Notes under the pieces: model-generated | Seen by the model: only the letters and a program-made list of their open reading frames with translations | Database searches by the model: none | Told to the model about the DNA's origin: nothing | Assembly (NCBI RefSeq): GCF_003856495.1 | Contig: NZ_CP034118.1 | Location: forward strand, 972,001 to 1,036,000 | Direction: 5' to 3' | Source of the DNA: Staphylospora marina | GTDB taxonomy: Bacteria > Bacillota > Bacilli > Thermoactinomycetales > Thermoactinomycetaceae | Length of the DNA stretch: 64,000 bases | Position numbers and translations under genes: made by a program | Part shown: piece by piece, positions 1 through 61,019 of the stretch | Numbering within the stretch: position 1 is the first letter of the stretch | How the letters are laid out: each line of letters opens with the position of its first letter

Positions 1-473
1 AATTCCAGGGAGCGAAACGACGCTTCCAAGTGATCGGGGAAGTGGACGGGGTCCTGGTCGTGGACGATTACGCCCACCACCCGACGGAAATCGCCGCCAC
101 CCTGAAAGGGGCTCGTGCCCTGAACCGCCGGATTGTTGCCGTATTCCAGCCGCAAAGATATTCCCGCACCCATCTGTTGTTCGATGAATTCAGCCGCTCG
201 TTCGGTGAGGCGGATGAAGTCATCATCAACACGGTGTATGCACCGCCGGGCGAAAAACCCATTCCGGGCGTCAGCGCGGAACGACTGGCGGAGCGCATCA
301 GGGAAAACAGCAATCCGAACGCCCGTTTCTTCGAGACCAAGGAAGAGATCGAGGAGTATCTGCTCGACACCGTCCGACCCGGAGATCTGGTCATGACGAT
401 GGGGGCCGGAGACATTTGGAGATTGGCACACGGTCTGGTGCCGAAGTTGGAAACACGTGTCCGGAAAGCATGA
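1..473 (+). CDS. murC: UDP-N-acetylmuramate--L-alanine ligase, C-terminal part (5' truncated by window edge)
   Basis: The open frame runs in from the left edge (first full codon at 3) and ends at TGA 471-473, so about 156 C-terminal residues are present. MurC adds L-alanine to UDP-MurNAc in cytoplasmic peptidoglycan precursor synthesis. The visible part starts just before the Mur ligase C-terminal domain: a GAKRRFQ-like stretch, then [12 protein letters not shown], which is diagnostic of MurC, and near the end a [13 protein letters not shown] motif typical of this family. The ATP-binding and central domains lie outside the window. The frame does not use the GTG at 30 as a start; that codon is internal. 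A hairpin terminator follows about 110 bases downstream. Confidence 0.95.
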
Positions 474-584
474 GCTCTCATCCTTTTTCATCCTGACCGG
501 TGAGGCGGCTGGCATCCGCCGCCTCATTCCGGCGGAAAGGAAGGGCACGTCCGCGAAGGATCAAGACGGCTTGAGGAGAAAAGT

Positions 585-623
585 GGGATCCCGCCCGTCG
601 ACGTACGGGGGATCCCTTTTTTT
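585..623 (+). terminator. Rho-independent terminator after murC
   Basis: GGGATCCC with a GC-rich extension (585-598) pairs with ACGGGGGATCCC (605-616) and is followed by seven T residues. It separates murC from the SCO1-type gene. Confidence 0.75.
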
Positions 624-719
624 CGGCTGCTCCGTTGTGTCAATTCGGTGAACCGTTTCCGGAATCCGTCGCCGTTGTGGTATGGTAAGGGCAGACAAGG
701 ATTCGAGGAGGACAGGCAG

Positions 720-1382
720 ATGAAGCGGTTGGTTATGGCTCCCGCGGTGCTGGCGGCGACGATGGCGCTGGTGTTGGCCGGATGCGATTCTTCCGGGAAA
801 CAGGCCGGACATGAGCATCACGGCACTTCCGAACAGGAAGCTCCGCAAACGACGAACAATGATGTCTCCTCGCTGAACTGGCGAGTTCCTGATTTCACCT
901 TCACCGACCAGGGCGGGAAACCGTTCGGATTGAAAGATCTCAAGGGGAAATTCTGGCTGGCTGACTTCGTGTTCACCCGTTGTCCCGATGTATGTCCCCC
1001 GATGACCGCCAACATGGCCCGTGTCCAAGAGCATCTGAAAAAAGCGGGAGTAAGTGTGGAAATCGTCTCTTTCAGTGTCGATCCCGAGTATGACACGCCG
1101 GAGCGATTGACCGCTTTTGCCGAAGATCATCAGGCGGATCTTTCCACCTGGCATTTTCTGACCGGATACAAGGTGGAAGAGATTGAAAAGATCGCCATGG
1201 AAGCTTTCAAGGGACCCGTCCGGCAGCAGAAGAGCCCCTCACCCGAAGTGCCCATTCTGGTGACGCACCCCACCCAGTTTTACCTGATTGACGATACCGG
1301 CAAAGTGGTGCGGTTTTATGACGGTCTGAAGCCGGATCCGGACCGGATTTTGGAAGATGTCAAACAATTGACGGGAAAATGA
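720..1382 (+). CDS. SCO1/SenC-family lipoprotein (copper chaperone for cytochrome oxidase)
   Basis: 220 residues from ATG 720, chosen because GAGGAGG lies 8 bases upstream; an earlier in-frame start at 648 would precede the signal peptide. Residues 1-24 form a lipoprotein signal ending LAGC, so the protein should be lipid-anchored on the outer face of the membrane. The thioredoxin-like fold carries the SCO1 metal site CPDVCP (around residue 88) and the distal histidine in VTHPTQFY. SCO1 proteins deliver copper to the CuA site of cytochrome c oxidase. It sits alone between two terminators and resembles B. subtilis YpmQ, though the symbol is not assigned here. Confidence 0.9.
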   Translation: MKRLVMAPAVLAATMALVLAGCDSSGKQAGHEHHGTSEQEAPQTTNNDVSSLNWRVPDFTFTDQGGKPFGLKDLKGKFWLADFVFTRCPDVCPPMTANMARVQEHLKKAGVSVEIVSFSVDPEYDTPERLTAFAEDHQADLSTWHFLTGYKVEEIEKIAMEAFKGPVRQQKSPSPEVPILVTHPTQFYLIDDTGKVVRFYDGLKPDPDRILEDVKQLTGK

Positions 1383-1400
1383 GTGATCGGCGAACATCGG

Positions 1401-1439
1401 ACTTCCGCGCCGCCTGAGGGCGATGCGGAAGTTTTTTTT
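1401..1439 (+). terminator. Rho-independent terminator after the SCO1-type gene
   Basis: ACTTCCGC (1401-1408) pairs with GCGGAAGT (1424-1431), with GCCGCC/GGCGAT extending the stem, then a run of T to 1439. Confidence 0.85.
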
Positions 1440-1567
1440 GGCGATAAGATCCCCTTCGCCAAAACAGGAACCGTCATCGGTCGCGGGAACGGTTCGTGGT
1501 GACGCTTGGTTGTCGTGAATGATTGTGAAATGTTTTTTTCTTTCACCTTCAGATTCCATGGTTGCCA

Positions 1568-1573
1568 TATAAT
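1568..1573 (+). promoter_or_regulatory. Candidate -10 element for the FAIM-like gene
   Basis: A perfect TATAAT lies 52 bases before the chosen ATG at 1625. No good -35 is seen (TTCACC is 20 bases upstream), so this is only a likely promoter. It supports a start at ATG 1625 rather than the TTG at 1562, which would lie upstream of the transcription start. Confidence 0.4.
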
Positions 1574-1624
1574 GATCTTGTCGGAAATTTTGATGAAGGC
1601 TTCTTGACGGGGGAATGGAAGTAC

Positions 1625-3349
1625 ATGGGGAAGAAACGGACGGAGACGAAACAGTGGATCCTGCGCCTGAACGGGCGGGAGACGGAAATTCGGGCCGAGT
1701 GGCAAGAGAATGGCGGCACCCTGACGGTGGACGGGAAAGAAATGGAGAAGTGGGAATCCGTCTGGAACCATTTGAACGTGCGTCGAACCGTGCGGGTGGG
1801 AGATCATCGGGTGGTGCTTCATCTTTCGAAGGAGACGGAATACGAAGAGTTTGTGGCGGATCTCAGCGTGGACGCCATCTCGGTGACGACCGGGAGGAAA
1901 GTGGAGGAGTTGCGGCCCACACCCGTGTACGGCATCGACAAGGTCTGGAACATTCGGTTGAGTGACGGGGAGCATGAAGTTCGTCTGAAACACGCTCGGA
2001 CGAAAGTGGAGTTGCAGTTTGACGGGCAACTCATGGAAAGATGCCATGTGTGGAGCGGCAGTACGGATCTGCCGATGCGGATCGGGGATCACCGGATCCA
2101 CGCACGCATTCGTCAAGTGGAAGACGGGCAATATCTGTATCAATTGATCGTGGACGGGTTGGATCAAGACAGCTTGCAATCTGTCGACCCCGTTTCGACC
2201 ACTCCTCCCGATCAGCTTCGGTTTCGGGCCTGGCATGTGACGCGGGGGGAGCGGATCCACCGGGTGGAGGTTCATTTCGGGGCACTCGGCCGGAGCTTCA
2301 AGGTATCGGTGGACGGCCGGCCGGAGACGGCAGTCGGAGGTTTGTTCAAGGAATCCGTGAATTGCATCCCGGTCAGGATCGGCGACTCGGAATGCTTCAT
2401 CTGCGTGCGGGATACATTTGACGAGAAGAAGGAATGCGATTTGGTGGTGGACGGGAGATTTTTCACCACCGGGGATCCCGTCGGGCATCTGTTGCAGCGG
2501 AGAGCTGACGGGATTCGCAGTTGGACGGTGGAATTGGACGGGGCGAGCCGGGAGATCGGGATCGACGCCGGCCGGCTGGAAACCAAGATTCTTTTGGACG
2601 GAGAAGTCGTCCATCGGAGAACCTGGCGTGACGTCTTGGCCGGATATACCTGGAACGAAATTCATTACGAATGGTTCCCGCTTCCGCTCGGCACCGGAGA
2701 AAGCGGGGTTCTCCTGGATCATCGGATGGGGCGCAGCTGGCGGCTCTACGTGAACGGAACGGATGTGGAAACCGGAAAACGACTTGAATCTTTGAAAGCA
2801 TTGACGTCCGGGGGAAACATCATCTGGCTGTTTCGCGATTCGGACGGGGCGTTGCAGCAGGTGGTTTTAAAGACCCGGTGGTTCAGACACAGCATCGTCG
2901 TGAACGGGAACGTTGTCGGAGAGCTGAATTCGTGGAAAGACCGGGAGAAAACGTTCCGCGTCGGAGCGTGGGAAGCGCGGTTGATCCTTGATGATTCCTT
3001 CGCCGACATAGAACTGAAAATCCTGGATCAATCCGTGCAAACGGGCAAACCGGTTGAAGTGTCGGAAGACAGTGCCAAACCGCCAACCGAAACGGGATGG
3101 AAGGATCGGATCACCGAAGCGCTGATTGGGGTGTTCCTGTCATTTGCATTGTGGTTGGGGTGGAAACTCATCGGATCTCCCGAGCGCGGGAGTGGCGTGT
3201 TTCTTCTCCCGATCGTCTATGTGCTCCCGCGATTGTTCGGGGTGACCACCCTCAGGGGAACCGTATTCTTTTTTGCCGGTTTGTTCGCGTTGTTTTTCGG
3301 CGGAAGCTATGTGTATTTTGAATGGATTGAGCCGCTGATGGCCGATTGA
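1625..3349 (+). CDS. Membrane protein with five tandem FAIM-like beta-sandwich repeats
   Basis: 574 residues from ATG 1625 (GGGGGAATGG upstream). The first 480 residues are five divergent repeats of about 80-90 residues (roughly 10-90, 107-187, 201-287, 298-391, 399-480). Each begins with W-x-hydrophobic-x-L, has a central VDG or VNG turn, and most have a hydrophobic-IGDH-like strand near the end. The second repeat, with WNIRLSDGEHEV and later FDG and IGDH, closely follows the pattern I recall for animal Fas apoptotic inhibitory molecule (FAIM1). Three hydrophobic helices (about 497-516, 525-540, 544-562) anchor the C-terminus. No signal peptide is seen, so the repeats are probably cytoplasmic. 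Function is unknown; the FAIM assignment is a pattern match, not a search result. Confidence 0.75.
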   Translation: MGKKRTETKQWILRLNGRETEIRAEWQENGGTLTVDGKEMEKWESVWNHLNVRRTVRVGDHRVVLHLSKETEYEEFVADLSVDAISVTTGRKVEELRPTPVYGIDKVWNIRLSDGEHEVRLKHARTKVELQFDGQLMERCHVWSGSTDLPMRIGDHRIHARIRQVEDGQYLYQLIVDGLDQDSLQSVDPVSTTPPDQLRFRAWHVTRGERIHRVEVHFGALGRSFKVSVDGRPETAVGGLFKESVNCIPVRIGDSECFICVRDTFDEKKECDLVVDGRFFTTGDPVGHLLQRRADGIRSWTVELDGASREIGIDAGRLETKILLDGEVVHRRTWRDVLAGYTWNEIHYEWFPLPLGTGESGVLLDHRMGRSWRLYVNGTDVETGKRLESLKALTSGGNIIWLFRDSDGALQQVVLKTRWFRHSIVVNGNVVGELNSWKDREKTFRVGAWEARLILDDSFADIELKILDQSVQTGKPVEVSEDSAKPPTETGWKDRITEALIGVFLSFALWLGWKLIGSPERGSGVFLLPIVYVLPRLFGVTTLRGTVFFFAGLFALFFGGSYVYFEWIEPLMAD

Positions 3350-3452
3350 CGGATGTTGAGCGAACGGAATCTTCCAAAATTGCCGGTCCCTTCTCCTGTG
3401 AGTGCCTTTGGACGGCAACGAAACGAAGCAGAAGAAGGATCCGGTTGCAGAG

Positions 3453-3493
3453 GCGGAAGAGGGATCATTTGCCCCTCTTTCGCTTCTTTTTTT
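3453..3493 (+). terminator. Rho-independent terminator after the FAIM-like gene
   Basis: GCGGAAGAGGG (3453-3463) pairs with CCCTCTTTCGC (3473-3483) with one G-T pair, followed by TTCTTTTTTT. Confidence 0.85.
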
Positions 3494-3503
3494 GGGAAAA
3501 TGG

Positions 3504-3528
3504 TATAATGAAAATGAAACTTAGTTTC
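3504..3528 (+). promoter_or_regulatory. Promoter -10 with adjacent GAAAC-TTA-GTTTC palindrome
   Basis: TATAAT at 3504-3509 is followed at 3516-3528 by the inverted repeat GAAAC/GTTTC with a 3-base spacer, at about the transcription start, and GAAAC recurs at 3536. The position suits an operator for the downstream methyltransferase gene; the regulator is unknown. Confidence 0.45.
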
Positions 3529-3555
3529 GCTTTATGAAACCGAAGGGGGCGGCGG

Positions 3556-4326
3556 ATGTTGATCAATTTTCACGATCGCGCGAATCGTTTGTCGTATGCC
3601 GGGCGAAATGTGGATCCGGCCTGGAGGGGCTTCATGGAGCAAGTGATCGATTGGCGCGGAAAACGGGTCGTGGATATCGGTTGCGGCGGAGGCATTTATA
3701 CCAAAGAAATGTTGCGTCTCGGCGCCGAACATGTTGTCGGGATTGACTTTTCGGAGGCCATGCTGTCAGTGGCGAAAACGGAACACAAGGGGATTGAATT
3801 TCGCAAAGGGGATGCCTGTGACACCGGATTGGTGGCCGGCTCATTTGATCTGGTCTTTTCACGTGCTTTGATCCATCATCTCCGCGATTTGACGGCTTAT
3901 TTCCGGGAAGTCTTTCGGATTCTCAAACCCGGCGGGATCGTCATGACGCAAAACCGCACAATCGCAGATTGTCAACTGCCGGGGAGTCCCCGGCATCTTC
4001 GTGGATATTTTTTCGAAAGGTTCCCCCGCTTGCTGCAAGTGGAGCAAAGCCGGAGACATAGCCATGAGGACGTGGTGCGGGCTTTGCTGGAAACCGGTTT
4101 TGCAGGGGTCGTTTGCAAGTCATTCTGGGAAACACGAAAAACCTATGCAACGTTTGATCAGTTTGCCGATGAAATGAGGAACCGGTCAGGCCGGTCGATT
4201 TTGCATGAATTGACGGACCGGGAGATCGAGGAACTCATCGGGGATCTCGCGCAAAAAACAGGTACCGCATCTCCCGTCACGGACAGGGATCGTTGGTCAG
4301 TCTGGATTGCCGTTCGTCCGGAATGA
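3556..4326 (+). CDS. Class I SAM-dependent methyltransferase (UbiE/Methyltransf_11-like)
   Basis: 256 residues, with SD GGGGGCGG before the ATG. The SAM-binding motif I is VVDIGCGGGIYTKEM (around residues 35-49), followed by an acidic residue in VVGIDFSEAM that would hold the ribose. Motifs GDACD and FDLVFSRALIHHL complete the Rossmann fold, and FRILKPGG is the usual post-motif. The substrate cannot be told from sequence. It is monocistronic, with its own promoter and possible operator upstream. Confidence 0.85.
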   Translation: MLINFHDRANRLSYAGRNVDPAWRGFMEQVIDWRGKRVVDIGCGGGIYTKEMLRLGAEHVVGIDFSEAMLSVAKTEHKGIEFRKGDACDTGLVAGSFDLVFSRALIHHLRDLTAYFREVFRILKPGGIVMTQNRTIADCQLPGSPRHLRGYFFERFPRLLQVEQSRRHSHEDVVRALLETGFAGVVCKSFWETRKTYATFDQFADEMRNRSGRSILHELTDREIEELIGDLAQKTGTASPVTDRDRWSVWIAVRPE

Positions 4327-4330
4327 CAAA

Positions 4331-4355
4331 CAACCCCGGCTGCTCTCCGGGGTTG
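4331..4355. repeat. Perfect inverted repeat downstream of the methyltransferase
   Basis: CAACCCCGG (4331-4339) and CCGGGGTTG (4347-4355) form a strong hairpin just after the stop codon. There is no T run, so it could be a weak terminator or mRNA 3' stabiliser. Confidence 0.6.
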
Positions 4356-4381
4356 TCCCATTCGTTGTGACCGGGTTTTGC

Positions 4382-4430
4382 CCACACACCCGGTTTGTCC
4401 GGAAAAGGGCGGCGGACCGGGTGTGTGTGG
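4382..4430. repeat. Long GC-rich inverted repeat upstream of comC
   Basis: CCACACACCCGGT (4382-4394) pairs with ACCGGGTGTGTGTGG (4416-4430) across a 21-base loop, and GTGACC (from about 4368) and GGTCAC could extend it across a bulge. No T run follows. It lies about 105 bases before comC and may be a leader structure or terminator. Confidence 0.6.
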
Positions 4431-4534
4431 TCACGGGAGCGTGTTCGGTCCGTTGCAGGATTTTCCATGTTCGGCCCGAACCTTTCCGGGAAACGGGGAG
4501 CATTTCCCGTCGGTTGGAAGGAAGCGAAGCAAAG

Positions 4535-5278
4535 ATGAGGGAACAGTTGTTGTGGATGATGTTGACCGGTGTGGTGGCCGGGAGATGGATTCCGCCGCTG
4601 GCACTGTGGGTGCTTGCCCGGCGGAAAGACGGTTCGGCCGCGGGATTTTCCCGGTGCATGAATGATTGTCCTCTCCGGTTCAAAGGGTGGACCCGGGATT
4701 TGTGTCCGGCTTGTTCCAGGGAATTGAATCGCCTTCGTTGGGGAATGACACTCGGTTTGCTTTCATTGACGAACGTGTTGGGGGCGTCGGTCGGGGATCC
4801 GTGGGAAAGCTGGTTCCGTCTGCTTCTCGTATGGGTGTTGTGCGTGCTGGTTTTGACCGATGCTTGGGCGATGCTCATCCCGAACGTCGTCACCGTGCCG
4901 GCGCTCTTCCTTTTTGCCGCGGTGCGGGCGGTGCTGTCGCCGGAAACGTTTCTCTCCGCCGTCGGGGCGGCGGCGGGTGTGTGGGGAGTCTGCCATCTCA
5001 TCCAAATCACCGGGGGCGGATTGGGCGGAGGGGACGGAAAGTTGTTGGCTCTGTCCGCGACCGTCATCGGTTGGCCCCACATCCTGTTCGCATTTTGGCT
5101 GGGATCGGTCTGTGCGCTTCTCTACCTGTTTTTGTGTCGTTTGGCCGGAAAAAAAGGGGGGTTGAAAGAACCCTTGCCTTTCGCTCCCCATCTGGCCGCC
5201 GGTGTGGTGACGGTGATGATCTGGTCCTCCGCCGTGGAACGGTGGTGGTCGACCTGGCTGACCGGAGGGATTTCGTAA
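4535..5278 (+). CDS. comC: Prepilin peptidase (type 4, A24 family; competence ComC)
   Basis: 247 residues from ATG 4535, with GGAAGGAAG upstream. The enzyme cleaves and usually N-methylates type IV-like prepilins, here probably the competence pseudopilins. It is polytopic. The two catalytic aspartates are visible: one in LVLTDAWAMLIPN and the other in the GxGD motif GGGLGGGDGKLL. The N-terminal region has the cysteine pairs CMNDC and CPAC of the zinc-binding cytoplasmic loop. Position immediately before spoIIB and maf matches B. subtilis comC. Confidence 0.9.
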   Translation: MREQLLWMMLTGVVAGRWIPPLALWVLARRKDGSAAGFSRCMNDCPLRFKGWTRDLCPACSRELNRLRWGMTLGLLSLTNVLGASVGDPWESWFRLLLVWVLCVLVLTDAWAMLIPNVVTVPALFLFAAVRAVLSPETFLSAVGAAAGVWGVCHLIQITGGGLGGGDGKLLALSATVIGWPHILFAFWLGSVCALLYLFLCRLAGKKGGLKEPLPFAPHLAAGVVTVMIWSSAVERWWSTWLTGGIS

Positions 5279-5382
5279 GCGGTTTGTCCTCACTCTTGAG
5301 CTGATTCAATTTGTTCCGTCCCCTGTTCTATCTCTTGCATCGGATCATAAGCTATATTAGAAGATTTCAGGGGGCGGTTATC

Positions 5383-6591
5383 ATGATGGAACCTCACAAG
5401 ATGAGCCAGGCGTCCGTCAAAGAGTCCGTCCGGGTGAATGTCCGGGCCAAGGGGATGAACGGCACCGTCCCCGGCGGATCCGGCCTGGTTGTACGGACCG
5501 TGAAAAAAGTGGCCAAACCGGGTCCCTCGATCGGACCCGTGACTTTGCGCAAAGAGGACAAGCCCGGGGACGAAAAGAGGATCACGGACCGGGCGATAAA
5601 CCCGGCCCGTTCCGAGCCGGAGCAAATCCGTGATGACAAGCTTCGGAAAACCCCCGCCATGTGGCTGGAACCGGAAAAGTTGTTCAAGGGAGCGCGCAAT
5701 GTGATCGAGTGGGGTTCTCCCTCAAACCCATTCAGAACAAAAAGCGGGTCCCTGCGTCCCGTCTCTTCCCGCGTGCTCCAGGTGATCTTTTCCATCTTGG
5801 GAGCCGTGTTGCTGGGGATGGCGATGGGGTTCTCGGTGCTCAACCTGTTTTTTGCCGACGATGTGAGCACGCGTTCGCAGCAGTCGATCGACAGTCATTT
5901 GCCTCAGCCCTCCAACCCTCCGGAAAATAAGGCGAATGAACAGGAAACTCCCGCAGTGACCACGGTGGAGGAGGAATGGCCGACTTTGCCGGCGGTTCTT
6001 CTGCAGGCAGGAAATTTCAACGACCGGGAGCGGGCGAGAAAAATGGTGCAGCAGCTTCGGACCAAGGGATTGGCCGCGGTGATGTCGGAAACGGCTCCCT
6101 ATCGCATCTTCCTCGGGATCAGTCCCGACAGGGATCAAGCGCTCAAACTTTCCTCCATTTTTCAAAATCAACAGGTGGATGTCTATCTGAAGGAGATGGA
6201 ACTGGGAGGAAAGTTCCGTACGGACAGTGAAACGGCCGGAAAACTCCGCGCCGTCCTGGAGCGCGGTCACGGGCTGTATACCCGCCTCGGTGCGGCATCG
6301 GTTTCGCAAATCCGCCAGGATGGCAAAGCTCCTTCTCCGAGCGCATTCAGTGAGTCGTGGCTTGCGGAGTACCGGACGTTTGTCACGGAGTATCAGGGAT
6401 TGGCAAAAGCGTTGCCGGCAGCGGCAAAGGGACCCGTCGAAGAGATGGTGCGGGCGTTGGACCAAGCGGTGCAGAGCGGAGACGAAGTGAGACGTCATCC
6501 GAGTCAGGCGCTTTTGTGGCAAACCCAGGAAGGATTGGTCCGGTACGTGTTGGCGTATGAAAAGCTTCATCACGCACTCGGCATCCGGTGA
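5383..6591 (+). CDS. spoIIB: SpoIIB-like SPOR-domain membrane protein
   Basis: 402 residues from ATG 5383 (a second ATG follows at 5386; SD GGGGGCGG). The first 130 residues are basic and polar, then one transmembrane helix (about 130-158), an external linker, and a SPOR domain (about 200-275, beginning PAVLLQAGNFNDRERA) that binds denuded septal glycan. B. subtilis SpoIIB sits at the same place between comC and maf and helps engulfment septal thinning, so the symbol rests on domain plus synteny. The C-terminal 125 residues are helical and not recognised. Confidence 0.85.
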   Translation: MMEPHKMSQASVKESVRVNVRAKGMNGTVPGGSGLVVRTVKKVAKPGPSIGPVTLRKEDKPGDEKRITDRAINPARSEPEQIRDDKLRKTPAMWLEPEKLFKGARNVIEWGSPSNPFRTKSGSLRPVSSRVLQVIFSILGAVLLGMAMGFSVLNLFFADDVSTRSQQSIDSHLPQPSNPPENKANEQETPAVTTVEEEWPTLPAVLLQAGNFNDRERARKMVQQLRTKGLAAVMSETAPYRIFLGISPDRDQALKLSSIFQNQQVDVYLKEMELGGKFRTDSETAGKLRAVLERGHGLYTRLGAASVSQIRQDGKAPSPSAFSESWLAEYRTFVTEYQGLAKALPAAAKGPVEEMVRALDQAVQSGDEVRRHPSQALLWQTQEGLVRYVLAYEKLHHALGIR

Positions 6592-58427: not shown

Positions 58428-58562
58428 ATGAAACCGGATTCTGATCGGGATCAGACCAAGCGGTGTGAAGCTTGCGGCGCCGAGATCGTCGTCCCGGAGG
58501 GTGTGCATGCGGAAGAACACGCCGGGATCGTTCGGGATCTGCTTCTGAAGCATTATGAATGA
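58428..58562 (+). CDS. Small CxxC protein (44 aa)
   Basis: 44 residues from ATG 58428 with GTGAGGGTGA upstream. The sequence has one CxxC (KRCEACGAEI) followed by histidines at 27, 31 and 42, so a zinc site is possible. A good promoter lies upstream and a terminator downstream (58639), which supports a real short transcript. I do not recognise it. Confidence 0.6.
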   Translation: MKPDSDRDQTKRCEACGAEIVVPEGVHAEEHAGIVRDLLLKHYE

Positions 58563-58687: not shown

Positions 58688-58775
58688 TCCGCGTTCTTTG
58701 GACTCCATGATATGATGGATATCGGAATCCCCGCATGGGGATGGCTGATCGTTGCGGAAAGGCAGGTTGAAGTCT

Positions 58776-61019
58776 GTGGCCCGCATCAGGGTATCCCGAA
58801 AGCTCTTTTCCCGTTACCGGAGCATCAGTCAGGCCATCCGGGATGCCGTGAACGGAACGGTGATCGAGGTGGAACCCGGGGTGTACCGCGAAGAGCTGAT
58901 CATTGATCGGCACGTTGAACTGGTCGGGGTGGGAGAGCCCGGAAGCGTGACGGTTCTCGGCAAACGTCATGCCGTTGTCGAGATGGCCACCGGTTATGCC
59001 GTTCTTCGAAATCTCACGCTCAAACACTCCGGGCCATCCCGGTTTCCGGTCATCCTCATTCCACGCGGTGCATTGGTCGTGGAAGATTGCCGGATTCAGG
59101 GCGGGAACGGCCCGGCCGTGGCACTGTTCGGCCGTGATGCGGAACCCGTCTTCCGCCGTACCGCTCTGTCCGGGGAAAGCAATGTGGCCGTGCTGTGTCG
59201 CTCATCCGGCAAAACGTTGTTTGAGGATTGTCGGATTCGGGGAGACAGCGGACTGGCCGCCGTTTTGGTGGCGGAAGGGGACCCGCTGTTCAGGCGGTGC
59301 GTGGTGACGGGTGACCCCGGATACGGGGTGTTTGTCGAAGAGCAAGGAGGAGGACGCTTCGAAGACTGTGATTTTTACGGGTTTGATCACAGTCCGGCCA
59401 TCGGGATCATCGGCGGGACCCCGTTGTTTCGGCGTACGAGAATCCATGACGGAAACGCTTCCGGAGTGGTGATGGACGGAGGCAAGGCCATTTTCGAAGA
59501 GTGCGTCTTTTTTTCGCTGGGCAAGAGCGAACCGGCGATTCGGGCGAGGGGTTCGGCCGTCCCCAGATTGGAGGACTGCGTGATCAAACATTGCCCCGGC
59601 GGCGGCCTCCTGTTTCAGGAAGAAGCCGGCGGTCTGGTGGATCGCTGTGAACTGTACGGATTCAAGGACGCTCCGGCCGTCACCTTGTTGAGCGACGCAC
59701 AACCCCAGTTGCTCCGTTGTCGCATTCATGACGGCAACCGGGAGGGGGTGCTCGTGGACGAGGGAGGACGGGGGATCCTGGAGAGTTCGGAAGTGAGCGG
59801 ATTCAACCGCGATCTGGTTCATGTAACCGGAGAGAGCCGGCTGGATCTGGTTCGTGTGACGTTGCGGGACGGAGGGGCCCGTGGTGCGGTATTCCTGCGC
59901 AAGTCGCGAGGCATTCTCCAGGACACGATGTTCTCCGCCTTCCGGCGGGATGCGGCATTTCAAGCCGCGCAAGCTTCGGATCCGTCCCTGTCGAACTGTC
60001 TGTTCCGCGATGTGGACGTGGCGGTGCGCCTGAGGGAACATGCCCGCGGAACGTTCGTGGATTGCCGGTTTGAAGGAGTTTCCGGAAAGATTTGGGATGT
60101 GGAGGACAGCCAGCCGGAAATCGTCGGCGACGTCGTGGATTCGGCACGCTCTCACGGGATTGGGGACGTTTCGGAAACGCCGTCGTTTGTCCTCCTGTTC
60201 GAAGAACTGGTGGGGCAGGAACTGGCCAGGCGGAAAATCTTGGATGTCTTGCTGTACGTGGATTATCTGCGGGAGAGGAAGAATCGGGGGATGTTTGCGG
60301 ATTCGGCCTTTTCCCTTCACGCTGCTTTTCTGGGTCCTCCGGATACGGGAAAAACCCGTGCCGCGGAGTTGTACGGCATTGCTTTGCGGGAACTGGGGAT
60401 GTTGACCCGGGGACATACGGTTCGCATCGGTGTTCGGGAAGCGAGCGACCCCGTCCTTCTGTCACGCGCCCTCGATGAGAGTGCCGGAGGCGTCTTGCTG
60501 GCGGTGGATGTCCACGAGTGGTTTCGGCAAGATTCCGCGAATGCGCGCTCTCATCTGGAACGTTGCGTAAAGGCGATCGGAGGAGATTGCGTGCTGGCCG
60601 TCACGGGAGACATCGATCCGCATTCGACGCTTCTTCCGAAAGAGTGGATTCGTCACCGTTTTCTCTTTCGGGAGTATGATGCGGAAGGGATGGCGGCCTT
60701 GTTCGGGAAAATGGCCGAGAGAGAGGAGTACCGGCTCCATCTGTCCGTCAAGCCCGTGCTTGTCCGGGAAATGACCCGGTTGATCCGGTTGGACTCCGCG
60801 GTCACCCGGGGGGCCAAGGTGAAAATGTTTTGGGAGAAAGTGAAGATGAAACACGGCCGGCGCTGTGCGTCGGTGCCCAAATCGGCCAGAACCACGGAGC
60901 TGCTTTCCACCATTCTCCCGGAAGATGTGGGTGACGTGGAATTCACCGAAGTGAATCCCGGACATCCCGGTTGGTTGGACGCGCTTTCCCGATCCCAAAG
61001 CGCCTCCCTTGACAAATGA
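58776..61019 (+). CDS. Right-handed beta-helix protein fused to a CbxX/SpoVK-type AAA ATPase
   Basis: About 747 residues from GTG 58776 (TTGs at 58752 and 58767 are alternatives). The first 480 residues are a NosD/pectate-lyase-like beta-helix: many 20-25-residue coils with the pattern LFEDCRI or PLFRRCVV then SGVVMDGGK. From about 495 a AAA domain of the CbxX/EccA/SpoVK clade begins (ELVGQELARRKILDVL, Walker A GPPDTGKT at 520-527, RGHTVRIGVREAS, arginine-finger region WIRHRFLFREY). In Walker B (GGVLLAVDVHEWF) the usual Glu after Asp578 is Val, so ATP hydrolysis may be lost or slow. No signal peptide. Function unknown. Confidence 0.88.
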   Translation: MARIRVSRKLFSRYRSISQAIRDAVNGTVIEVEPGVYREELIIDRHVELVGVGEPGSVTVLGKRHAVVEMATGYAVLRNLTLKHSGPSRFPVILIPRGALVVEDCRIQGGNGPAVALFGRDAEPVFRRTALSGESNVAVLCRSSGKTLFEDCRIRGDSGLAAVLVAEGDPLFRRCVVTGDPGYGVFVEEQGGGRFEDCDFYGFDHSPAIGIIGGTPLFRRTRIHDGNASGVVMDGGKAIFEECVFFSLGKSEPAIRARGSAVPRLEDCVIKHCPGGGLLFQEEAGGLVDRCELYGFKDAPAVTLLSDAQPQLLRCRIHDGNREGVLVDEGGRGILESSEVSGFNRDLVHVTGESRLDLVRVTLRDGGARGAVFLRKSRGILQDTMFSAFRRDAAFQAAQASDPSLSNCLFRDVDVAVRLREHARGTFVDCRFEGVSGKIWDVEDSQPEIVGDVVDSARSHGIGDVSETPSFVLLFEELVGQELARRKILDVLLYVDYLRERKNRGMFADSAFSLHAAFLGPPDTGKTRAAELYGIALRELGMLTRGHTVRIGVREASDPVLLSRALDESAGGVLLAVDVHEWFRQDSANARSHLERCVKAIGGDCVLAVTGDIDPHSTLLPKEWIRHRFLFREYDAEGMAALFGKMAEREEYRLHLSVKPVLVREMTRLIRLDSAVTRGAKVKMFWEKVKMKHGRRCASVPKSARTTELLSTILPEDVGDVEFTEVNPGHPGWLDALSRSQSASLDK

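Follow-up and report, generated by a model that had tools for sequence, protein, structure and literature searches.

Described relatives of the beta-helix–AAA gene

The characterised members of the SpoVK/CbbX/EccA clade of AAA proteins are described as dedicated chaperones, acting on Rubisco (CbbX), MurG (SpoVK) and substrates of the type VII secretion system, T7SS (EccA), and an N-terminal beta-helix has been mentioned for EccA (Delerue et al., PMC10659427). Here we analyse a gene of Staphylospora marina whose product joins a long beta-helix to an AAA fold of this clade. It lies on the forward strand at positions 58776–61019 of a 64,000-nucleotide stretch of contig NZ_CP034118.1 (972,001 to 1,036,000), hereafter the window. 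Full-length orthologues were identified in 12 of 23 genomes of the Thermoactinomycetaceae, a family of often heat-loving bacteria to which they have so far been confined; this count includes the window copy, to which the others are 36–43% identical. Judged from its sequences, this orthologue family appears to consist of pseudo-ATPases, not of trapped motors.

Among described proteins, CbbX, the red-type Rubisco activase (PDB 3SYL, 3SYK and 3ZUH), shares the AAA fold and is the best match in both sequence and Foldseek searches. Unlike CbbX, the window protein carries a beta-helix in front, and its Walker B, pore loop, sensor-1 GY and arginine finger are not usable; no Rubisco was found among the eight window neighbours scanned with Pfam. 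SpoVK, the MurG chaperone of sporulation, belongs to the same AAA clade, but the N-terminal part of the window protein is unrelated to it, the motifs are lost, and the S. marina genome carries a separate, intact SpoVK-like protein (L002). EccA-like proteins with an N-terminal TPR or beta-helix domain resemble it in architecture (PMC10659427), whereas the ATPase site of the window protein is eroded.

The combination of beta-helix and AAA is thus already known. An earlier note on the window, made from its letters, had considered the architecture undescribed, a view contradicted by the mention of EccA in print and by a Lihuaxuella relative with two intact AAA domains, described below. What appears to be new, as far as the open-access literature searched reaches, is that this family has a conserved version of its own in which the ATPase site has eroded. 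In that literature, only the EccA paper proved relevant to the protein itself or to a beta-helix combined with CbxX, SpoVK or EccA, and a search for pseudo-ATPase AAA proteins found none.

Architecture of the protein

The gene and its two domains are located as follows.

58776–61019, + strand: whole gene, 747 amino acids from a GTG start
58758–58766, + strand: ribosome-binding-site-like AAAGGCAGG, with 9 nucleotides between its end and the GTG
58782–60125, + strand: right-handed parallel beta-helix, residues 11–458, about 18–19 coils
60186–60932, + strand: degenerate AAA domain of the CbbX/SpoVK/EccA clade, residues 479–727

The gene is real: it forms a single open reading frame (ORF). As the earlier note had proposed, a beta-helix joined to an AAA fold of the clade is indicated by family searches, by comparison of profiles and by an AlphaFold2 model alike. 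The ORF spans 58752–61019 (+ strand) from a TTG and encodes 755 amino acids. The GTG at 58776, also chosen by the earlier note, is the better start because AAAGGCAGG lies 9 nucleotides upstream of it and the starts of several orthologues line up with it.

The beta-helix matches Pfam Beta_helix (PF13229) at 133.4 bits, well above the cut-off of 25.9. In the AlphaFold2 model, for which the 12 aligned orthologues served as input (mean predicted local distance difference test score 86.9, predicted template modelling score [pTM] 0.61), strands run across residues 11–458. Hydropathy repeats with periods of 23 and 46–47 residues give about 18–19 coils over residues 36–460, close to the 20 or so counted previously. 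In VIA-align the best row is 8egr_A (Z 34.8, root mean square deviation [rmsd] 3.8, 449 residues aligned) and beta-helix chains head the list; as such chains make up most of it, absence of a fold there excludes no fold. The linker (residues 461–476) was modelled with low confidence and, given this and the pTM of 0.61, the placement of the helix relative to the AAA domain is not fixed by the model.

Structural matches of the beta-helix include mannuronan epimerases and PL6 lyases, which raises the possibility of a cytosolic enzyme that modifies polysaccharides or sugars and carries a regulatory AAA remnant. We consider this very unlikely. The likeness is at fold level, with 7–15% identity in the beta-helix rows of VIA-align, and tailspikes and adhesins are listed as well; Pectinesterase (PF01095) reaches 12.6 bits, under its cut-off of 27. 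The enzyme reading is also at odds with the N-terminus, where no hydrophobic stretch was found in the 12 proteins (highest 19-residue mean 0.73 in the first 40 windows of each). Since no signal-peptide-like or membrane stretch is present, the protein is probably cytosolic. The helix repeats an IHDG-like motif, which we take to resemble the repeats of FBXO11-type beta-helices; FBXO11 is a eukaryotic ubiquitin-ligase subunit.

The AAA domain was recognised by fold and profile. A Pfam scan of the window protein returned no AAA family match, and the SpoVK and CbbX models matched residues 483–559 below threshold. Against solved structures, CbbX was the best phmmer match (9.1e-7) and the top Foldseek match (7.4e-12), and VIA-align superposed 3syl_B (CbbX) with a Z of 21.1 and an rmsd of 5.6 over 258 residues at 20% identity. 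Comparison of the orthologues with SpoVK-like proteins of Thermoactinomycetaceae in hhalign gave 99.8% probability. Together, these four comparisons place the domain in the AAA+ fold nearest CbbX and SpoVK. It falls far short of the equivalog cut-offs of the clade, scoring 34.7 bits against 422.95 for SpoVK (TIGR02881), 34.7 against 459.25 for CbbX (TIGR02880) and 19.4 against 466.65 for the T7SS protein EccA (TIGR03922), and Pfam, NCBIfam and PADLOC scans found no named family with established function for the window protein. Two helices precede Walker A in the model (residues 479–485 and 490–511).

Erosion of the ATPase site

The segments that correspond to the ATPase motifs were assigned in the window protein as listed; the clade features (GY of sensor-1, Asn and arginine finger, sensor-2 Arg, bihelical hairpin) were taken from PMC10659427.

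60333–60356, + strand: Walker A GPPDTGKT, residues 528–535, complete (orthologue alignment)
60486–60515, + strand: Walker B remnant GGVLLAVDVH, residues 579–588 (MAFFT and hhalign)
60591–60611, + strand: sensor-1 remnant VLAVTGD, residues 614–620, clade-defining GY gone (orthologue alignment)
60639–60662, + strand: shortened arginine-finger segment KEWIRHRF, residues 630–637 (MAFFT and hhalign)
60804–60827, + strand: sensor-2 remnant TRGAKVKM, residues 685–692, Arg of GNAR gone (A688; orthologue alignment)

Walker A is kept, as had been noted. The earlier note had read the Walker B glutamate as valine; the acidic pair is indeed lost, with the register moved by one residue. Both MAFFT and hhalign align GGVLLAVDVHEW on GGILFIDEAYSL, so that the aspartate is replaced by Val585 and the glutamate by Asp586. 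The arginine-finger region, earlier thought to be kept, is shortened in the NPGLPSRF segment, and its arginine falls on Trp632; IRHRF, perhaps the stretch that the earlier note had in mind, comes just after it. Owing to the shortening, the register is less certain here. The independent profile alignment by hhalign returned an identical motif register for the window. The pore loop YIG, the sensor-1 GY and the sensor-2 GNAR, on which the earlier note was silent, are gone as well.

For comparison we used eight SpoVK-like controls from Thermoactinomycetaceae, which retain every motif counted. They are drawn from 12 single-AAA loci, the other four of which carry the same motifs by pattern (12/12 intact). 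TIGR02881 is the best NCBIfam model for the controls; its cut-off is a strict one for this family, as three of the eight pass it and the other five score 409.9–420.5 bits. The SpoVK-like protein of S. marina itself (L002) has intact motifs and scores 417.3, just below the cut-off.

Among the 12 orthologues the picture is very different. The Ser/Thr of Walker A is present in the window copy only, and the preceding Lys in nine, being Gln in L004, L005 and L008. Walker B retains its Asp in four (L010–L013) and its Glu in one (L010), which is also the only orthologue with the sensor-2 Arg, or second arginine finger. None has the pore-loop YIG. The sensor-1 Tyr of the GY signature, the arginine finger and the Asn four residues before it are absent from all 12 and present in 8/8 controls. 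No orthologue thus has both the Walker A GK[ST] and the Walker B DE of an active P-loop AAA. It is because 11 of 12 are without the Walker A Ser/Thr (three of them also without the Lys), and all 12 without pore loop, sensor-1 Tyr and arginine finger, that the family appears to be a pseudo-ATPase. Because different genera retain different relics, the sequences suggest separate, late steps of decay; the GKT of the window copy was either retained or regained.

These counts bear on the proposal of an ATP-locked hexamer motor, in which the protein would be a hexameric AAA chaperone that binds ATP and is defective in hydrolysis, regulated rather than dead. The intact GPPDTGKT of the window copy fits this proposal, as does the DQ in Walker B of L011 and L012, a classical trap substitution. 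These two orthologues, however, carry GKE instead of GK[ST], no orthologue pairs a Walker A GK[ST] with even the Walker B Asp in the aligned register, and the loss of pore loop, sensor-1 Tyr and arginine finger throughout makes the wording too strong. We regard such a motor as unlikely.

A relative with intact ATPase sites

An ORF of Lihuaxuella thermophila (L042:7461–10655) encodes a beta-helix followed by two AAA domains, and scores 478 bits with PF13229 and 119 bits with PF00004. It shares the helix-then-AAA order of the window protein and is 34% identical to it over residues 10–361 of the window helix. It differs in having a second AAA domain and in lying on a separate contig, with an orthologue also present in the same genome. 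Both of its AAA domains have intact Walker A, Walker B DE, sensor-1 GY and finger Arg. AAA1 also has YIG and the sensor-2 Arg; AAA2 has YQG, and the ORF stops before sensor-2. The ORF ends within this second AAA domain, and further matching sequence lies just downstream in the genome. Some 2.2 kb upstream lies a protein-kinase-like ORF, and a SUKH-family ORF is found at about 5 kb on the downstream side.

The C-terminal lid links this relative to the orthologues, as AAA1 has lid residues of the orthologues that are absent from SpoVK.

60861–60926, + strand: C-terminal lid, residues 704–725, with invariant or near-invariant residues (column comparison)

In the lid, R704 and D725 are as in SpoVK, C705, P709 (11/12) and E716 are common to the orthologues and Lihuaxuella AAA1, and R713 is found only in the orthologues. 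Over the whole domain, 82 columns are invariant in the eight controls and AAA1, 15 of which at least 10 of the 12 orthologues share. A further 19 near-invariant orthologue columns differ from SpoVK, six of which are common with AAA1 (Y502, Y642, P644, C705, P709 and E716 in window numbering) and 13 are not, among them Q489, D504, Y505, Y541, M674 and R713. Given the 34% identity of the helix and the lid residues of AAA1 that SpoVK is without, an active beta-helix–AAA protein is the likely ancestor, with the direction of change deduced from the sequences. In a tree of the AAA domains the orthologues stand apart with 100/100 support and long branches; the root was not placed from this tree.

Beta-helix-only relatives, that is, homologues without the AAA part, which the earlier note had named as a finding that would count against its reading, were found in the order in a family other than Thermoactinomycetaceae (G030, 497 amino acids, and G032, 395 amino acids), so the helix also exists as a separate module. 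The 12 orthologues were chosen as full-length matches, and the presence of the AAA domain in all of them therefore holds by selection; no shortened copy was seen at the orthologue site.

Other arrangements were observed in passing. In Paenactinomyces (L043:7925–9267) a beta-helix/AAA arrangement is broken into a 150-residue helix ORF and a 297-residue AAA ORF. In G030 (L084:6152–10047) a WHH/colicin-DNase-like ORF and a SUKH ORF with two domains stand immediately before the beta-helix-only homologue, a layout of the polymorphic toxin-immunity type; upstream, at 2946–3410, a stretch of 154 residues nearly repeats the end of the helix gene. L014, L015 and L026 (in G016, G015 and G013) combine a hydrophobic N-terminal part with two SpoVK-type AAA domains whose motifs look intact.

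Distribution, locus and selection

A single-sequence scan of genome contigs detected no relative, whereas an alignment-based scan detected 11 loci, all within genera or metagenome-assembled genomes (MAGs) of Thermoactinomycetaceae: two Laceyella, Lihuaxuella, Hazenella, Thermoactinomyces daqus, Seinonella, two Thermoflavimicrobium, Paenactinomyces and two MAGs. Across 42 genomes of the order, full-length matches were confined to this family. Eleven of 398 class-sampled genomes matched at 1e-50, ten of them family genomes with full-length matches and the other G030 with the beta-helix alone; among 398 phylum-sampled genomes, the source genome was the sole match. A phylum search with the intact relative at 1e-40, where a weaker helix match would go unlisted, gave matches that, among those listed, cover the AAA part only, and says nothing firm on fusions elsewhere.

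The gene lies downstream of recJ and apt, and upstream of azoR where azoR is present. Of the 12 stretches, the window included, 9 contain recJ, 9 apt, 8 a homogentisate-dioxygenase-like (HGD) gene, 8 typA, 7 a flavin-reductase-like gene and 6 azoR. Eleven of 12 loci share at least one of these neighbours or a GNAT gene, counting G008, where recJ lies past the end of the stretch; the twelfth (G005), at a contig end, has none of them. The names apt, GNAT, azoR (flavodoxin-like fold), SecF and CDF come from Pfam, and recJ, HGD, flavin reductase, signal peptidase and typA from reading of the sequences. As the earlier note remarked, nothing among the neighbours explains the gene.

Of the 11 genomes without the gene, all have recJ and 10 have apt; in nine, azoR follows downstream of apt after a gap of 162 to 5386 nucleotides. 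No remnant was detected in these 11 regions by tblastn with three orthologues at 1e-3 (the G002 region is cut short by the end of its contig). On the best RecJ tree, in which two rows are partial, the presence of the gene needs five gain/loss changes, two of them forced by well-supported branches. Because the gene occupies one shared site, we infer that an ancestral gene lost several times reads best. A recent mobile element is disfavoured by the shared chromosomal neighbours. A scan of viral contigs with the alignment gave 37 pattern stretches, none of which was confirmed as a sign of phage origin, and anti-phage defence was set aside as PADLOC returned no match for the window protein at 0.01.

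Purifying selection on the gene is seen in the Laceyella pair. Codons 461–754, which cover the AAA domain and linker, contain 10 synonymous changes per 190 sites versus 6 nonsynonymous per 692 (p = 4e-4), and codons 1–460, 13 per 313 versus 7 per 1067 (p = 5e-5); the ratio of nonsynonymous to synonymous divergence (dN/dS) was 0.12 and 0.15. Only this pair was usable, synonymous divergence being saturated, with no dS, in L011/L012 and near saturation in L003/L004. All 12 copies have uninterrupted full-length frames. A decaying gene without function, to which the absence from 11 of 23 family genomes, the gain/loss changes on the RecJ tree and the motif erosion might point, is hardly credible against these frames, the selection in the Laceyella pair and the near-invariant positions peculiar to the orthologues.

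Upstream region

One conserved element and one small ORF were identified upstream of the gene.

58708–58716, + strand: TGATATGAT, possible extended -10 of a vegetative (sigma-A type) promoter
58428–58562, + strand: small protein of 44 amino acids resembling a CxxCG ribbon, directly upstream of the gene

At the place of TGATATGAT, TGAYAT occurs upstream of 7 of 11 aligned orthologues by a count made by eye, the window included, within a TGAYATATT-like element that is frequently followed by GAAA. Neither a sigma-A pattern search nor a consensus scan picked out the element. It may be an extended -10 and looks, weakly, vegetative rather than sporulation-type. CxxCG-like ORFs precede the gene also in G009, G008, G019 and G022, so that, with the window, 5 of the 11 loci examined have one; another is found in G011, a genome without the beta-helix–AAA gene. 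The 44-residue protein looks independent of that gene.

Discussion

Architecture, orthology, synteny, erosion of the catalytic motifs and purifying selection in one species pair were all computed here. The reading we favour, at a rough probability of 55% that covers self-assembly as well as docking, is that of a cytosolic scaffold or adaptor in which a long beta-helix rod is joined to a pseudo-AAA domain used for oligomerisation or docking. Its probable ancestor is an active beta-helix–AAA protein from the SpoVK/CbbX/EccA clade. Within the Thermoactinomycetaceae the ATPase site, pore loop and arginine finger would then have eroded without loss of the fold, and residues elsewhere (ahead of Walker A and in the lid) would have become fixed. 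The present protein would not hydrolyse ATP in vivo. Its pseudo-AAA part would supply the fold that makes rings in this clade, now serving to oligomerise or to dock, either onto further copies of the protein or onto an active SpoVK-clade ATPase. The helix, with its long surface, would act as a target-binding rod that holds a client. Because Walker B, the sensors, the arginine finger and the pore loop are gone, pulling of a client through a pore is improbable. Of the earlier suggestion of a scaffold or regulated chaperone, the scaffold remains plausible and the motor becomes unlikely, the site being eroded in the 12 orthologues.

Several observations weigh against this reading. The evidence for purifying selection comes from one close pair. 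In 65 of 66 pairs the helix is better conserved than the AAA part (mean identity 51% versus 37%), and the faster evolution of the latter also fits loosened constraint. The window AAA domain is the most diverged, as TIGR02881 scores it at 34.7 bits, compared with 95.1 bits for L004 and 66.2 for L010, and its motif registers are less sure for that reason. With its full GPPDTGKT the window copy may still bind nucleotide, and L010, from Seinonella, retains the Walker B DE, the Walker A Lys and the sensor-2 Arg. Finally, the Walker A allele of SpoVK was not dominant and barely accumulated (PMC10659427), the former presumably on account of the latter.

That allele bears equally on a related idea, that the protein is a dominant-negative or tuning subunit, its pseudo-AAA domain entering mixed rings with an active SpoVK-clade ATPase and its helix acting as the substrate receptor. 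The intact SpoVK-like protein in the same genome could provide the partner, SpoVK alleles altered in Walker B or in the arginine finger are dominant over wild type (PMC10659427), and a red-algal CbbX is a 1:1 hetero-hexamer according to a review (PMC5385338). By analogy, such precedents make mixing of subunits plausible and are no evidence for mixing by the window protein. The protein is only 26% identical to its own SpoVK-like counterpart over residues 484–725, the upstream element weakly argues for vegetative rather than sporulation-type expression, and the SpoVK Walker A allele failed to act dominantly. We therefore hold mixed rings to be possible yet doubtful.

The earlier note also proposed that neighbours of homologues be surveyed for WXG100 genes. 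A link to WXG100 proteins or T7SS was rejected: a PF06013 search of the 23 family genomes gave no match in S. marina, and matches in 4 of 12 genomes with the gene and in 3 of 11 without it, which is no association.

A conserved member of this clade that keeps the fold without the motor, and is missing from the same site in relatives, would make it possible to test directly what role an AAA fold can have when ATP is not used, and whether inactive subunits modulate active ones in bacteria. Such a protein also presents a small, tractable case of the passage from enzyme to pseudoenzyme, with genera preserving different relics of the active site. Should the lineage-specific protein prove to be a dead-subunit regulator that joins active SpoVK-clade rings or builds passive ones, a tentative proposal that we would not expect to hold, the rod would be a new substrate receptor and the ring would be slowed or retargeted. 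To our knowledge, no pseudo-ATPase has so far been described in the SpoVK/CbbX/EccA clade, and this protein would then be the first.

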